A DNA stretch of 64,000 nucleotides from Anaerolineaceae bacterium. GTDB taxonomy: Bacteria > Chloroflexota > Anaerolineae > Anaerolineales > Anaerolineaceae. The notes under the pieces were generated by a model. The model made no database searches and was not told where the DNA came from. It worked only from the letters and a program-made list of their open reading frames with translations. Both the position numbers and the translations under genes were made by a program. Position 1 is the stretch's first letter; each line of letters begins with the position of its first letter. The stretch spans positions 1 through 64,000 of the forward strand of contig PABH01000051.1 in NCBI GenBank assembly GCA_002702705.1, read 5' to 3'. Positions 28,298 through 35,230 of this stretch are shown piece by piece.

Positions 28298-29320
28298 ATG
28301 AGAAAAAACATGTTTAATACACCCACTCCAATTCAACAAATATTAATTTCAATGTCTTTATTGAATCTACGGGGAAAAGATTCGGTAGCTTACCAGACTT
28401 TGGAAGATTTTCAGAAAACAATTTTCTTTTCCGCCTTTAATGCTTTTCAATTTGACCACGTACAAAAATTAGTTAATCAGAACTATCTTAAAGTTAATGG
28501 GGATCATCTTCAATTAACTTCCGAAGGAAAAAAACAAGGAGACGCTTTACGATATCATTATCCCAAGGCACGTTTTTTTTATGATGAGTTTTTTCTTAAA
28601 GCCGACTCCAGCCCTACACATCAAAAATTTTGTGAACAGGTGTATGGCATGAATCTTTGCCAGCATGGCATGGCGACCATGAACCAGCTCCAGATATTAT
28701 TAGATTCCTTAAACATAACCCAAAACGACCGGGTTTTGGAGCTTGGTTGCGGAAATGGACGGATCACCCAATGGTTGCAGGCACAAACAGGTGCATTTTT
28801 TACCGGGATTGACCTTTCTCCGGTGGGTATACAACAAGCACAGATGCGTATGGGTAATACGAATCCCAACTTGAATTTTCAGGTGGAAAATTTAAATGAA
28901 TTTGTACCGGAAGTAACCCCATACCAGTTTATTATCGCAATTGATCTTTTTCCTTTTATCCAAGATCCGGAAGCCTTGCTAACCAATCTTCAAACTTGCC
29001 TTGCTCCTGGCGGAACCCTTGTGATATTTTGGTCTGCCTGGAAACCGGATCATTCCCCGGAAAGTGTCCTCTCACCAAAACACAATCATCTGGCATCGAT
29101 TCTTGATAAAAATAACTGGTCCTACCAGTTTCTGGATTTTTCAGTGCAGGAAAGAGAACACTGGAAACAAAAACATGAAGCATTGTTTGATCTAAAAAAT
29201 GCTTTTGAACAAGAAAACAATCATTTTTTGTATAACTACCGCTTTATGGAAACATCTTCCCACCAAACCTATGTAAACAATGGAAATCTGCGGCGGTTTT
29301 TATATTTGTGCACAAAATAA
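28298..29320 (+). CDS. SAM-dependent methyltransferase with N-terminal winged-helix-like domain
   Basis: 340 residues. Residues about 10-95 look like a winged helix or helical bundle (QTLEDFQKTIFFSAFNAFQF, LVNQNYLKVNGDHLQLTSEG). A class I methyltransferase fold follows with motif I VLELGCGNGRITQWL, an acidic loop FTGIDLSP, motif II/III FIIAIDLFPFIQDPEALL and LAPGGTLVIFWSAW. The layout is that of small-molecule O- or N-methyltransferases with an N-terminal dimerisation domain. The substrate is unknown. No ribosome site is obvious; the ATG at 28310 is an alternative start. Confidence 0.85.
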   Translation: MRKNMFNTPTPIQQILISMSLLNLRGKDSVAYQTLEDFQKTIFFSAFNAFQFDHVQKLVNQNYLKVNGDHLQLTSEGKKQGDALRYHYPKARFFYDEFFLKADSSPTHQKFCEQVYGMNLCQHGMATMNQLQILLDSLNITQNDRVLELGCGNGRITQWLQAQTGAFFTGIDLSPVGIQQAQMRMGNTNPNLNFQVENLNEFVPEVTPYQFIIAIDLFPFIQDPEALLTNLQTCLAPGGTLVIFWSAWKPDHSPESVLSPKHNHLASILDKNNWSYQFLDFSVQEREHWKQKHEALFDLKNAFEQENNHFLYNYRFMETSSHQTYVNNGNLRRFLYLCTK

Positions 29321-29351
29321 AATAATCTTACAGTGCATTTGTCATCTGCGC

Positions 29352-29405
29352 TTGACGGAAAAATCGTGAACCCCTATACTCAAAGATATACAATTAAGGT
29401 GGAGG
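29352..29405 (+). promoter_or_regulatory. Promoter and ribosome site of the MBL-fold hydrolase gene
   Basis: TTGACG (29352-29357), a 17-nt spacer and TATACT (29375-29380) are a near-consensus sigma-70 promoter. GGTGGAGG follows at about 29398-29405, 8 nt before the ATG at 29414. Confidence 0.7.
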
Positions 29406-29413
29406 AATAAACG

Positions 29414-30142
29414 ATGTCAGTACCGATTTTACCAATTAACCTGGGAATGGTTAATTGTTTTTTATTAGCGGGTAAAGAAGGGTACCTTTTGGTAGACAGC
29501 GGGTATCCACATACCTATGAATCCTTAATAGAAAAACTAAAAAAACAAAAAGTGAATGTCAAAGATATTCACTACCTTTTATTAACACACCACCACGATG
29601 ACCATTGTGGTGCGGCTGCCTTACTTCAGCAAACTTGTGACCTTCGATTGATTGTTCACAAAAACATGCTCCCTTTTTTGGAAGAAGGTCACGGCGCTTT
29701 GGATGGCGCTGAACCGGTTACACCAACGCTAAATTTCTTTTTAAATATTTACCAACGTTTTAACCGCTCCGACTATCCTTTTACCCCCGTAACCGTAAAA
29801 GAAGACGACATCATTTTACAAAACGATGACCATCAACTTTTACCGTCGATTGGTATTGCAGGATCTATTTTGTACACCCCAGGCCATACCAACAATTCTC
29901 TTTCATTGGTTTTAGAGGGCGGTGATGTCATTTGTGGGGATATCGCCTTTAACAATCCCTTGTTTGAATTAATGGGAGCCCGCCACCGCCCAATTTATTT
30001 ACAGGATGAAAAAACAGTCTACCGTTCCTGGCAAAAAATAAAACAACACGGTGGAAAACGTTTATTTCCGAGCCATGGTAAACCATTTTCTGTTGATAAA
30101 TTAATACGTCCGGAAGGTGAAATTAAATACCAGGTGGAATGA
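29414..30142 (+). CDS. MBL-fold metallo-hydrolase
   Basis: 242 residues, a single metallo-beta-lactamase-fold domain. Metal motifs are complete: THHHDDHCGA (HxHxDH), YTPGHTNNSLSL, CGDIAFNNP and LFPSHGKPF. It is in the glyoxalase II/lactonase-like group of MBL hydrolases that bind two metals; the substrate is unknown. A 53-nt internal piece of this gene (29713-29765) recurs with one mismatch at 32924-32976, inside the decayed island. The first palindromic repeat begins 8 nt after the stop codon. Confidence 0.88.
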   Translation: MSVPILPINLGMVNCFLLAGKEGYLLVDSGYPHTYESLIEKLKKQKVNVKDIHYLLLTHHHDDHCGAAALLQQTCDLRLIVHKNMLPFLEEGHGALDGAEPVTPTLNFFLNIYQRFNRSDYPFTPVTVKEDDIILQNDDHQLLPSIGIAGSILYTPGHTNNSLSLVLEGGDVICGDIAFNNPLFELMGARHRPIYLQDEKTVYRSWQKIKQHGGKRLFPSHGKPFSVDKLIRPEGEIKYQVE

Positions 30143-30149
30143 AAATCAA

Positions 30150-30506
30150 CCTCCAGGAAGGCAGTTTGTTCATTAAACTAACTTGACGTTACCTCCCGGA
30201 GGGACTAAGATACCTCCCGGTGGTGAGATGCCAACCGACCAAGCAAAAAATTACCCCACCGGGAGGATAATCATGCGGACCATGCTGATCCAAATTCGGC
30301 CTCCGGGAGGGCAGTTTGTTCATTAAACTAACTTGATCGTTACCTCCCGGAGGGACTGAGACACCTCCCGGTGGTGAGATGCCAACCGACCAAGGCCAAA
30401 ATTAAACCACCGGGAGGACAATCATGCGGACCATGCTGATCCAAATTCGGCCTCCGGGAGGGCGGTTTGTTCATTAAACTAACTTGATCGTTACCTCCCG
30501 GAGAGG
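30150..30506. repeat. Tandem ~151-bp palindromic repeats, 2.4 copies
   Basis: Units start at 30150, 30300 and 30451, with periods of 150 and 151 nt. Each full unit has hairpin A (CCTCCGGGAGG, about 32-nt loop, CCTCCCGGAGG), an 11-nt linker, hairpin B (CCTCCCGGTGG, about 32-nt loop, CCACCGGGAGG) and a 33-nt linker. The linker holds a short imperfect GGACCA/TGATCC stem. The third unit stops inside hairpin A with a mutated right arm. The first left arm is mutated (CCTCCAGGAAG). GGGAGG in the B right arm stands 6 nt before an ATG that opens a 17-codon frame in both full copies (30273-30326 and 30424-30477). Confidence 0.85.
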
Positions 30507-30509
30507 TTG

Positions 30510-30568
30510 AACTGTCAACACATGGATGGTCGTTATGGCGCTGGTGCGACTAATGATTTTTTAACACC
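30510..30568 (+). pseudogene. azlD: 3' remnant of a second azlD
   Basis: The frame ACA-TGG-ATG-GTC-GTT ends in TAA and encodes TVNTWMVVMALVRLMIF. The end of azlD at 28.1 kb encodes TVITGMVVVALARLLSF with the same codon phase and the same TAA. Homology extends a few codons further 5', where a TGA replaces a Gly codon, and then stops against the third repeat unit. It is a diverged paralogue end, not a recent copy: many codons differ but phase and stop are kept. Confidence 0.7.
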
Positions 30569-30731
30569 CATCCGGGCTTAAGAAAATAACGATCCGTGAC
30601 GATTTGTTCGTTAAAAAATCCGGTATATTGTCATATAAAAACTTTCCCCAGCTTACAAAGCTAACCAGGCACATCAAACAATGTAGAATTAAAATTTGGT
30701 ATGTTTAACTTTCTCCGGATCGGTTAAATAA
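30569..30731. other. Intergenic stretch, no feature
   Basis: AT-rich sequence between the azlD remnant and the end of the propeller pseudogene. No frame, RNA gene or clear hairpin is visible. Confidence 0.4.
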
Positions 30732-32778
30732 TTAATTGGCTTCGGCCGGAATATATTTTGTTAATGTGTCAGAGGCCAACCAAACCGTCCCGTTTTCATC
30801 AATTTCTAATTCAGTATAATATCCCTTTAACTTGTGATCAGTCCATTCCGTACCATCAAATGAAAACAAACCTGAATTCGTTAAAACCCACACTCTCCCC
30901 TTTGGATCGATTGCCATGTCATGCAAATAATCCGTGTTCCCATCTTCTTCCGTGTAACCGACTTCTTCTTTGTAACCAACCCACTCTTCCCCGTCAAAGT
31001 GGGAAACTCCTTCGGAACTGCCTACCCAAATTGTATTATCCAACCCAAGCATAAGTTTATTGGCAATGCCAATCGTTACTCCATCCCGTTTTCTAAAATG
31101 TTCTTTTAGGATCTCATCGTGAAATACATAGATTTCTTCATCAGTGGCAACCCAAATATCCCCATTGTGAGAAATGATTAAGTCATTAATAAAAATGCAA
31201 TTGTGATAAATAGGTTGGTTGACTCCAAACAAAATCATCTAATTGATATACCACATCACTTGTTAAAAATAGGAAATGGCCCTCATCGTTCATAGCTATT
31301 GAATAAAACGTATTACTTTCAGTTTCGGATATGTCTGGATAAGTAGTTAATATTTGATTCTTATATCGAAACAAATTATCATAAGTCGTCATCCAAAGAG
31401 AACCATCCGGTGTTAATAAGATATTGTAATATCTGATATCTTCATTATCCATATCTGAAGGTTCAAAAGGTTTCCATTTTTGTCCATCATAACTGGACAT
31501 CCTATCCGGGTATGTAATCCAAATTTTTTTTGAACTGAGTACTTGAAGGTCATTAATCGCGTTTGTCGGTATCTCGTCACTCGTTACCAAAGTTTGCCAG
31601 CCTTGTTCGTCCAATTTCGAGACACCCTGATTGTAAGTACCAAACCAGACATTACCTATTGAGTCCACCGCAATATCTGTTACCTCATTTTGGGCTAATC
31701 CGTCATCTTCATCAACTGTAATCCAGATTCCATTTTCGAATCGTGAAACACCATGAAACCTCTCTTTTACCTCCACCATATTCTCGCGAAAACCAAATGA
31801 GTGTTCATCCGAGGATTGTGTGAAACCGACCCACACCGTTCCTGATTCAGAAACAGCGATTGAAGATACACCAACCCCGATATTCCTTTCACTGGTAAAG
31901 GCAGCCGGATAGGTTTGCCAAATCCCATTCTTAAAAGACGCTAAGTATCCTTCACCCCCAACCCACATCGTACGATCCGGAGAAAACGTTATCGCCATCA
32001 CGGACGGTGCCGGTAAAAAGGGGCTGTAATCGATCCAGTTTTCTCCATCAAAGCGCAGTAAACTATGATCTCCTAACGCGCCAATCCACAAATCACCATC
32101 CGGCCCCTCTGTAATCACATCAACACGGACCAAATATAATTCCAGTGACGGCAAAAGTGGAATTTTTGTCCAAACCTCACCATCATATCGATTTAGACCA
32201 TCCACAGAACCAGCCCATACGATACCATCGGTTGTGACTGCCAGGCTCATCACACAATCTGAGATTAGTCCGTCTTCTATTGTAAAGGTGTTCTAGTTTT
32301 TTCCATCAAATCGAGTTACCCCGCCAAGGCAGGAGCTGAACCAAACCGCACCATCTGAAGTTTCTGCAATATCCGTAATAAAATTTCTGGGTAGACCTTG
32401 ATCCACGGTATATTTGGTATATTCCCCGCTGGTTGTATTCCAATAAACCGCACCCCCGCTTCCGCCCGTCCATAAATTACCTTGCTGGTCGATCAATAAA
32501 GTCCGAATATAGTTCGCGTTTGTAAAGTCGAACCATTCCGGTTGGCTTGGTTCTGATTTTACGGATTCAATTGTTGCTGTTAAGGTCGGCGTTGGCCGGT
32601 GTATTACTTCGGCAGGGATAAAAGTCTCGGTTACCACATTCACAGTGGGTTCTTGATTTACCGGCATTTGTGAATTTGGATGGATTAGGTTATTTACCCC
32701 TCCAGCACTACACGCGGTTAGAAAGATCAAGAGCAAAAAACACAATCGGACTAGAGGGCTGGATTTTTTATTTCCCAT
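30732..32778 (-). pseudogene. Lipoprotein of the two-component-regulator propeller type, broken by amber codon and frameshift
   Basis: Three consecutive minus-strand frames form one protein. The first (32778-32293) has a lipoprotein signal (LLLIFLTACSAGG) and starts the blade pattern. It ends RFDGKN-TAG and the same frame continues after the TAG with NTFTIEDGL; neighbouring blades have Trp there, so TGG became TAG (32293-32295). The second frame (to 31186) continues with blades of the form VWAGSxxGLxRYDGExW. Near 31205-31225 a 1-nt shift moves reading to the third frame (PIYHNCIFINDL), which runs to 30732. Blades repeat GxVWxGTxxGLxxFDGxxW about every 40-50 residues, the Reg_prop type. The intact protein would be an extracytoplasmic beta-propeller sensor or scaffold. 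Confidence 0.8.
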
Positions 32779-32923
32779 AGAAATACAACATTCTCAAAGT
32801 CTGTATTGGTTGAAACCAGTTATATGATCAACGATTTATTTAATTGTAATACTGAATGAAATAAAAATATCGTTCTTAGTGATATACGTTTCATTCCACT
32901 ACAGGTGTTTTTGATCTGAACCG
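32779..32923. other. Upstream region of the propeller pseudogene
   Basis: AT-rich sequence before the propeller start codon on the minus strand. Promoter hexamers are not clear. No gene is present. Confidence 0.4.
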
Positions 32924-32976
32924 ACCGGTTACACCAACGCTCAATTTCTTTTTAAATATTTACCAACGTTTTAACC
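32924..32976 (+). repeat. 53-nt copy of the interior of the MBL hydrolase gene
   Basis: Positions 32924-32976 match 29713-29765 of the MBL-fold gene with one substitution (CTAAAT to CTCAAT). No other part of the gene is present. About 6 nt further the second palindromic repeat starts. It is a recent duplication fragment, to judge by the identity. Confidence 0.85.
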
Positions 32977-32982
32977 ACATCT

Positions 32983-33148
32983 TTACCTCCCGGAGGGATT
33001 GCGACACCTCCCGGTGGTGAGATGCCAACCGACCAAGCAAAAAATTACCCCACCGGGAGGATAATCATGCGGACCATGCTGATCCAAATTCGTCCTCCGG
33101 GAGGGCAGTTTGTTCATTAGGCTAACTTGGTCGTTACCTCCCGGAGGG
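32983..33148. repeat. Second copy of the palindromic repeat
   Basis: It begins with the right arm of hairpin A (CCTCCCGGAGG at 32986-32996). A complete hairpin B, whose loop matches that of copy 1, and a complete hairpin A (33094 to 33147) follow. GGGAGG (33055-33060) and the 17-codon frame (33067-33120) are kept, with a silent CGG-to-CGT change and a TAA-to-TAG stop change. A further fragment ACCGGGAGGG occurs at about 33256-33265. Confidence 0.85.
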
Positions 33149-33300
33149 GTGGCTTTCCAAAGGATTTCCGCTTAACCTTTTGAAGGCAGCACTTTCATTA
33201 ATCCGATACTTCCTCTTGACCTTGATATCAGGAGGTATACAATTAAATTAACCGTACCGGGAGGGAAACTTCGGTAAGGACTAAAAAACAGGAGTTAATC
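33149..33300 (+). promoter_or_regulatory. Promoter region of the superoxide reductase gene
   Basis: TTGACC (33216-33221), a 16-nt spacer and TACAAT (33238-33243) form a plausible sigma-70 promoter. CAGGAG stands about 7 nt before the ATG at 33301. The segment between promoter and gene carries the leftover ACCGGGAGGG of the palindromic repeat. Confidence 0.5.
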
Positions 33301-33690
33301 ATGAAACAGAACCAAATATATGTATGTGGGGATAAAAATTGCAGCGGCATGGTTGAAGTAATCGCATCATGTGATACCTGCGAGGACACGGACCTGATTT
33401 GCTGTGGGGAACCAATGGTGTTATTGGAAGCGAAGACTGCAGACCAAGGAAAAGAAAAACACGTGCCGGTCGTAGAAAAACAAGATGGGGGTTATCTGGT
33501 CAAAGTTGGCGATGTGCCGCACCCAATGATCGAAAAACATTGGATTACCTTTATTGAATTACGCACCAAAGATGCCGTTTATCGAAAATATCTCCACCCT
33601 GACCAGGAACCACAAGCCTTTTTTGCCACGGAAGAAGAGATTGTGGAAGTGGTTTCTTATTGCAATATTCACGGGTTGTGGGTGGCGTAA
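33301..33690 (+). CDS. Desulfoferrodoxin / superoxide reductase
   Basis: 129 residues. The C-terminal superoxide-reductase domain has its iron ligands: His in EKHVPVV, two His in VPHPMIEKHWITFIEL and the Cys-His pair in SYCNIHGLWVA. It reduces superoxide to hydrogen peroxide in anaerobes without making oxygen. The N-terminal desulforedoxin-like part is unusual: Cys9 and Cys14 are four residues apart (normally two), extra Cys24 and Cys27 form a CX2C pair, and Cys34-Cys35 are the usual CC. Which four bind the FeCys4 centre is unclear. It is monocistronic with its own promoter and a strong terminator. Confidence 0.93.
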   Translation: MKQNQIYVCGDKNCSGMVEVIASCDTCEDTDLICCGEPMVLLEAKTADQGKEKHVPVVEKQDGGYLVKVGDVPHPMIEKHWITFIELRTKDAVYRKYLHPDQEPQAFFATEEEIVEVVSYCNIHGLWVA

Positions 33691-33713
33691 CCCGAATTTT
33701 TTTATCATTAAAT

Positions 33714-33746
33714 AACCGCTTTGCATTTGAGCAAAGCGGTTTTTTC
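33714..33746. terminator. Bidirectional terminator between superoxide reductase gene and guaB
   Basis: AACCGCTTTGC (33714-33724) pairs with GCAAAGCGGTT (33731-33741) and is followed by T5. The minus-strand reading ends the purine operon just after the guaB stop (33749). Confidence 0.88.
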
Positions 33747-33748
33747 TT

Positions 33749-35230
33749 TCACTCACCACGTTGATAATTAGGCGCTTCACGGGTAATGGTAATATCATGA
33801 GGATGGCTTTCAATCAATCCGGCGCCTGTGATACGAACCAAACGGGTGTTATTTCGCAGGTTTTCCAGGTTTTCAGCCCCGGCATACCCCATACCGGATC
33901 TTAATCCACCCACCAGTTGGTAGACAAAATCTCCCAATGTTCCTTTGTATGGCACCATACCTTCCACCCCTTCCGGTACCAATTTTCCCGGTCCACTCTG
34001 CCCGGAGCCATAACGGTCTTTCCCGTAACCCTGCATGGCCCCCATGGAACCCATACCGCGATACGATTTAAACTGTCGCCCGTCATATAAAATTTCTTCA
34101 CCAGGAGATTCCTTTAATCCAGCCAACAAACTACCCAGCATAACCGTGTCCGCACCAGCAGCAATCGCTTTCACAATTTCGCCGCTGTATTTAATGCCGC
34201 CATCCGCAATAACCGGTATACCTAACGGGCGGGCAACCTTCACGCAGCGGTAAATGGCACTTAATTGGGGCATACCGGCACCGGAAACTACCCGTGTGGT
34301 GCAGATTGAACCAGCACCGACCCCGACTTTAATCGCGTCCGCACCTGCTTCAATTAACGCCAGCGTGCCCGCTTCCGTAACCACATTTCCAGCGATCACG
34401 GGTAAATTGGGTACTGCTTTTTTTAACCGTTTGATGGCTTCGATCACACCGGTTGTGTGGCCATGTGCCGTATCAATCACCACGACATCCAAACCTTTAG
34501 TTAACATCAGTTCTGCCCGCGATTCGAGGTCGGCCCCCACACCCACGGCTGCCCCAACCAATAACCGGCCGCGATCATCTTTGGCGGCGTTTGGATACTG
34601 CGCTCTTTTTTGAATATCTTTTACTGTGATGAGGCCTTTTAAGTGACCCTGTGCATCGACCAAAGGTAATTTTTCAATTCGATGTTTCTGTAAAATCACC
34701 TTCGCCTGTTCCAGCGTGGTACCCAGTTCAGCGGTGATTAATTTTTCCGAGGTCATAAATTCAGAAACGGGTTTGTAATAGTCTTCACGTTCGGTAAAAC
34801 GAATATCGCGGTTGGTGAGGATACCAACCAATTTGTTGCTCTCAGGATCAACCACCGGTAAACCGCTGATTCGAAAGCGAGCCATGATCTGATCGGCTTC
34901 TTCCAAAGTGGCGTTTGGCGGTAAAGTGATCGGATCAGCGATCATGCCGGATTCGGATCGCTTCACCGTTTCCACTTCTTTGGCCTGGTCTTCCGCAGAC
35001 ATATTGCGGTGTAAAATACCGATGCCGCCTTCCCGCGCCAGCGCAATTGCCAGCCGCGACTCGGTGACCGTATCCATCGCCGCAGAAAGCAGCGGAATAT
35101 TTAGCTGGATATCACGGGTCAGTTGGGCTTTAACATCAACCTGAGAGGGTAAAACCTGGCTGAACCCGGGTTCAATTAATACATCATCAAAGGTTAACGC
35201 ATCGACTTGTTCAAAAAGTTTTTGATTCAT
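33749..35230 (-). CDS. guaB: IMP dehydrogenase
   Basis: 493 residues, usual length. The TIM barrel carries the catalytic Cys in [15 protein letters not shown], substrate loops [10 protein letters not shown] and [12 protein letters not shown], and the flap [16 protein letters not shown]. Two CBS domains are inserted at about 95-205 ([20 protein letters not shown] and [21 protein letters not shown]). It oxidises IMP to XMP, the first step to GMP. It is the last gene of the purine operon, 18 nt after purH, with AAGGAAAA before the ATG. guaA is not in the window. Confidence 0.97.

Follow-up and report, generated by a model that had tools for sequence, protein, structure and literature searches.

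Between an MBL frame and a desulfoferrodoxin frame, the 64,000-nt stretch of Anaerolineaceae DNA analysed here (the window) carries two arrays of structured palindromic repeats, and it may be asked whether they represent a regulatory RNA, a known repeat family or mobile DNA. The first-pass annotation had left all of these readings open. The arrays were therefore compared with each other, with the rest of the source genome (G000; a draft of 5.89 Mb in 74 contigs), with related genomes and with the repeat families described in the literature.

Structure of the arrays in the window

Comparison in register gave three 179-nt copies (30178-30356, 30329-30507 and 32972-33150), thus confirming that the repeat units are real and lie where they had been annotated. 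The outer two are 89-90% identical to the middle copy, and the first spacing is 151 nt. Each unit of about 151 nt contains two inverted 54-nt hairpins, A and B, with 11-bp arms and 32-nt loops. The A arms are CCTCCGGGAGG/CCTCCCGGAGG and the B arms CCTCCCGGTGG/CCACCGGGAGG, with an offset of 43 from arm to arm. The left array begins on the minus strand with a diverged A hairpin (30150-30202; arms CCTCCAGGAAG/CCTCCCGGAGG, offset 42), followed by the first B hairpin (30213-30266, plus strand), a 33-nt linker carrying the ATG of a 17-codon frame (30267-30299, plus), the second A (30300-30353, minus), the second B (30364-30417, plus) and a third A hairpin (30451-30504, minus) that closes the array. 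The right array opens with a lone A right arm (32986-32996, strand not assigned) and continues with the third B (33007-33060, plus) and the fourth A hairpin (33094-33147, minus). The palindrome CCTCCSGGAGG, allowing one mismatch, was matched 14 times in the window compared to 0.42 expected.

In the congener G005, 107 nt separate the MBL frame from the desulfoferrodoxin frame. No such hairpin was seen between them, and the covariance model described below found none in G005. In the window genome the distance is 3158 bp, accounted for by both arrays, a disrupted propeller gene and an MBL fragment of 53 nt. A desulfoferrodoxin match was obtained only from G005 among the 12 relatives searched, so that an outgroup does not decide between gain and loss; gain in the window genome is simpler than loss in G005. 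The MBL fragment (32924-32976, plus strand), located just before the right array, is a 98% copy of the MBL gene segment 29713-29765 and is a trace of local duplication. Together with the similarity of the units, it suggested that tandem growth at this locus occurred by local duplication. The propeller gene (Reg_prop, two-component-regulator propeller; 30732-32778, minus strand) lies between the arrays, is split into three frames of 161, 355 and 168 aa and looks like a pseudogene.

Distribution of the hairpin family

A DNA similarity search detected more, diverged copies on four other contigs of G000, and arm patterns found others. From 42 copies of the 54-nt hairpin, a covariance model (R1) was built; with 150 of the 3785 first-look candidates scored, it gave at least 117 matches in G000 at E<=1, counting both strands. 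After merging, 95 rows in 53 clusters were obtained. These rows comprise the places found by the model, minus most of the duplicates read on the reverse strand, plus C42:196 and C23:29396; two rows on contig C50 are linkers overlapping hairpins. The 87 rows with standard length and ends (total length 53-55 nt, near-standard arm ends) were taken further, a filter which somewhat inflates the uniformity of length and outer arms. The eight rows left out were the two C50 linkers, C26:102639, C49:71281, C51:16566, C51:16628, C51:196712 and C72:7910. Five hairpin clusters (L027, L030, L035, L082 and L090) are located within about 600 bases of contig ends; the assembly may thus break at the hairpin family, and copies may be undercounted for this reason too. 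The hairpins are often found next to another repeat, CACACAGA..ACAGA.ATACAGAGAAGAG ... CTTCCGTACCTCCGTGTG (L035 196-760, L027, L031 11100-11557, L038 and L045).

Among 40 relatives scanned with the model at E<=0.1, using stricter filters than for G000 and at most 141 scored candidates per genome, one strong place (G002, same genus) and one weak place (G049) were identified. DNA similarity and exact pattern searches gave no copy in 60 relatives. A pattern scan of genome contigs yielded three stretches, from the congener Chloroflexi bacterium 44-23, from Streptomyces and from "Bacterium HR32", the latter two of which were judged to be chance matches. Within the reach of these searches, the family has expanded in this species alone. 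Some copies are nevertheless old, since the hairpin at C13:23813 of G000 occupies the same site in G002. An origin from phages or plasmids was dropped after a distant blastn search with 381 bases remained unmatched in both collections; two repeat patterns scanned in viral contigs were not found there either.

Using crude longest-frame gene calls, 44 of the 53 clusters were intergenic, while seven overlapped called frames and two lay inside them, many of these frames being short. For the 42 intergenic clusters with both neighbours, the flanking genes were convergent in 14 cases, divergent in six and co-directional in 22.

Covariation of the arms

Pairs of CCTCC and GGAGG were collected from the window and 19 fetched stretches without requiring that the inner bases pair. 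All six inner pairs were Watson-Crick in 36 of 45 cases at offsets of 42-44, compared to none of 34 at other offsets (20-99). Thirteen of the 36 carry the arms of the pattern used to fetch most stretches, which are nearly self-complementary, and six come from a pattern that itself demanded pairing. The remaining 17 have arms used in no search (13 CGTTGG, three GGGTGG and one CGTAGG), the three GGGTGG pairs being tandem copies on C50. Within the 87 rows, positions 6, 8 and 9 exchange as pairs (CG/GC, TA/GC and TA/AT, respectively) and the other positions hardly vary. The 42-row alignment, which was partly chosen for pairing, gave a covariation score of 0.269 compared to 0.084 after shuffling, and 47 cells changed on both sides compared to 19.3; none of 500 shuffles was as high in either measure. 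Double changes occurred in 3 of the 11 pairs in these 42 rows, as many as in the shuffles. The compensating changes that the first-pass annotation had proposed to look for were thus present.

Loops were 31-33 nt long in the 87 rows, as ensured by the filter, and 68 of them started with TGA. The bases mainly kept across the genome family are this TGA, a C at the loop end and two A positions. The conservation of loops and linkers noted earlier therefore applies to the window copies and does not extend to the family at large. A and B are one kind of module in opposite orientations. Of 24 pairs of adjacent inverted hairpins, 23 differed in their inner arm code (expectation 17.9; count of 23 reached by 0.4% of the shuffles); five of these pairs are from the window and one (C67) was read out of register. 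An inverted hairpin pair at C51:16566-16682 (L103), outside the 87 rows, has outer arms changed in step (TCGCC..GGCGA and CTCCC..GGGAG) in place of CCTCC/GGAGG.

Copies with IS66-type ends and target duplications

Sequences resembling GTRACTGCTCAGC (up to five mismatches) were found on both sides of 16 out of 127 hairpins or hairpin pairs, compared to three out of 127 for the reversed control motif. In six of these 16, the flanks carry 8-bp repeats matching at 7-8 positions (four of them at all eight), while flank shuffling gave a mean of 0.62 such duplications and a maximum of four in 5000. Eight better elements, picked by eye from the 16 for length and ends, include all six with duplications; C51:208845 and C58:68594 are the other two, with duplications matching at four and one positions, respectively. 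Six of the eight are 173-176 bp long and contain two inverted hairpins, and two are 105-106 bp long and contain one.

In Deinococcus geothermalis, ISDge4 (ISBst12 group, IS66 family) has GTGACTACTCAGCA and GTAACTGCTCAGCA at its ends, together with a direct repeat of 8 bp, according to the available text of PMC12898284. Both the end sequence GTRACTGCTCAGC and the 8-bp direct repeat liken the elements described here to this group. Unlike ISDge4, however, they are 105-176 bp long, which leaves no room for a transposase, they contain covarying hairpins, and the window copies do not carry these ends. We concluded that the form bearing terminal inverted repeats is an IS66-type MITE and part of the family, its transposase being inferred: a search of G000 with PF03050, a profile uncalibrated for the ISBst12 group, gave no IS66 transposase at E<=0.001, and the draft may lack the partner. 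End-like places with up to two mismatches numbered 130 in the genome, many of which are chance matches since the reversed control gave 52. Examination of 14 listed places revealed one further degraded copy (C1:127274) and no transposon. Among the matches listed, one inward-facing pair of ends 1-3 kb apart, on C9, had no duplication and enclosed a 680-aa frame, which we take to be UvrB-like.

The window arrays are not bracketed by such ends, the nearest motif matches (30660, minus strand; 32234, plus strand) carrying three mismatches. Over the whole window, 20 end-motif matches were counted against 11.3 by chance (one of 100 shuffles as high). Pairs without ends showed no target duplication: with sliding allowed, one of 23, a window pair, reached 5 nt (0.37 expected). 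The mobility of the MITE form can therefore not be extended to them. A target duplication belonging to the single hairpin was also looked for, and none was found in the 87 rows. For the family as a whole, the suggestion of a non-autonomous mobile unit gained support from its dispersal, from the ends and 8-bp duplications of a subset and from the congener without repeats at the locus.

Regulatory RNA or host-maintained sites

The initial proposal that a hairpin arm hides a ribosome site was based on the B right arm, which holds GGGAGG 6 nt before an ATG. This ATG opens the 17-codon frame (MRTMLIQIRPPGG(Q/R)FVH), and in all three window units the frame starts 6 nt past the B right arm (30273-30326, 30424-30477 and 33067-33120, plus strand). 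The strong fold of the window array (z -6.0 against shuffles) could also be accounted for by a structured regulatory RNA or attenuator whose hairpin would conceal the ribosome site of a short leader frame. Since the window units are similar tandem copies, however, the conservation of the frame says little, and we judged the frame incidental. In 77 of the 87 hairpins the right arm terminates in GGAGG as part of the arm motif, and starts at ribosome-site distance were not enriched beyond it: an ATG lay 4-12 nt beyond the arm in 23 of 174 flanks, three of them those of the window units, compared to 27.2 in shuffled sequence, and any start codon in 64 compared to 69.3. The minimum-energy fold of the array uses longer pairings between the A arms of neighbouring units, which can pair together because they are nearly self-complementary. 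A MITE copy also folded better than shuffles (z -5.4), as inverted repeats necessarily do. Downstream of genes, again by crude gene calls, the sense strand showed 28 G.U pairs and 22 A.C mismatches; these about equal numbers, in a comparison of low power, do not indicate that one RNA strand is under selection, and the suggested regulatory RNA thus drew no strand-specific support. No Rfam family was matched up to E 1 in 29000-34500, and a known Rfam family was dropped accordingly. Most sites are intergenic, with convergent neighbours outnumbering divergent ones, which also argues against a leader. Taken together, a regulatory leader appears very improbable. A likeness to attC sites was noted by eye and this reading was set aside.

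Another possibility is that the hairpins are 3'-end or chromosome-organising sites maintained by the host, as argued for some REPs and BIMEs, with a protein reading CCTCC/GGAGG and mobility being secondary. The outer arm bases hardly vary while the inner ones covary, and 21 of 22 arm bases are retained in the orthologous copy, whereas its loop has 8 differences in 32 aligned bases and one gap; the flanks of this copy are well kept too. Flanking gene 3' ends (105) outnumber 5' ends (56), counted per hairpin on crude gene calls and hence not independent. Against such maintenance by the host speak the one strong and one weak place in 40 relatives, under the filters given above, and the single shared site that happened to be noticed. 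We consider host maintenance quite unlikely.

Comparison with REPINs, BOX and other repeat families

In REP/REPIN systems, two inverted short sequences form a hairpin that is moved by a RAYT, a Y1 transposase. The family resembles the REPINs of P. fluorescens, as described in the available text of PMC3116915, in its inverted doublets with constant spacer length, compensatory changes, extragenic location, tandem clusters and alternating orientation; extragenic inverted doublets able to form hairpins, by which REPINs are recognised, were indeed what we found. Six Y1_Tnp matches are also present in the genome. However, none of the six loci showed this type of arm at 10 or more of 11 pairs in flanks of up to 1.5 kb, shortened by contig ends in two cases, so that a RAYT partner was rejected. 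The GTAG tag is missing as well: no flanking tetranucleotide (GTAG/GTRG) is conserved beside the palindrome (no position within 15 nt exceeds 0.66 bits), the flanks hold little information, and 14 of the 87 rows have CTAC where the loop ends. Moreover, a subset lies inside an IS66-type MITE with 8-bp duplications, unlike REPINs. A true REPIN system moved by a RAYT is therefore an unlikely explanation. Two Y1 (RAYT-like) transposase matches, L050 and L051, have their own repeats on both sides, unlike the hairpin family.

The BOX elements of pneumococcus, in the available text of PMC3049150, are likewise structured, modular composites with a variable number of modules, ends and target duplications, an excess between convergent genes and a narrow species range. 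Unlike here, their host belongs to a different phylum, and the likeness to boxA, boxB and boxC is one of description and not of sequence profile. The GTAG and CGTC superfamilies of REPs share stem subfamilies with complementary changes, hetero-dimers and a 3'-end location, judging from the part of PMC3733652 that was available. Their loops are 2-20 nt (GTAG) or 4-5 nt (CGTC) long, compared to 31-33 nt here, and the tag tetranucleotide is absent here. RepRanger, according to the accessible part of PMC12306157, has a default loop limit of 11 nt. In the available text of a MITE review (PMC10969869), a word search found neither IS66 nor Chloroflexi. Literature searches with the arm and end sequences, covering mostly non-subscription papers, gave no account of the hairpin family and one relevant paper, that on ISDge4. 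For Chloroflexi with MITE or palindromic repeats, the family was absent among the matches listed, mostly from non-subscription literature, and for Anaerolineae with REP and for ISBst12 with miniature inverted repeats nothing was found in similar literature. The statement that no described family has this form has thus withstood these searches, with REPIN, BOX and MITE families, as far as their available descriptions go, being close in kind.

A modular repeat and its possible spread

We consider it likely that the hairpins constitute a lineage-specific, dispersed and modular selfish repeat of BOX/REPIN-like kind, a subset of which is part of an IS66-type MITE while the window arrays lack its ends. 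Its module, an inverted repeat of 54 nt, is able to form a hairpin and often occurs as an inverted pair. One form carries two modules inside a MITE of roughly 175 bp with ISBst12/IS66-type ends, which a putative IS66-type transposase acting in trans may insert with an 8-bp target duplication; the ends and duplications were observed. In the other form, represented by the window, pairs or tandem units occur without those ends, and the window arrays probably grew by local duplication after arrival, in keeping with the tandem 151-nt units and the MBL fragment observed there. Given the near invariance of the outer CCTCC/GGAGG and the paired exchanges at three inner positions, a pairing constraint combined with recognition of the sequence by a presumed reader protein may keep the arms complementary.

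A further version of this selfish reading would have two layers, in which the 54-nt module spreads independently, besides having been captured in an ISBst12-type MITE. A dedicated protein would read the CCTCC/GGAGG feet, covariation would keep the hairpins foldable, and the differing codes of neighbouring hairpins would favour local folding. This version is possible although doubtful.

Most simply, the family is selfish intergenic DNA, and judging from sequence, effects of the hairpins on mRNA ends are possible. The ends, target duplications and structure of a Chloroflexota repeat family from a lineage represented by draft genomes are now partly defined, and REPIN-like covarying hairpins appear here tied to an IS66-type end instead of a RAYT. 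If the module does move both with and without those ends, it would offer a test case for small structured repeats that change their mobilising enzyme.
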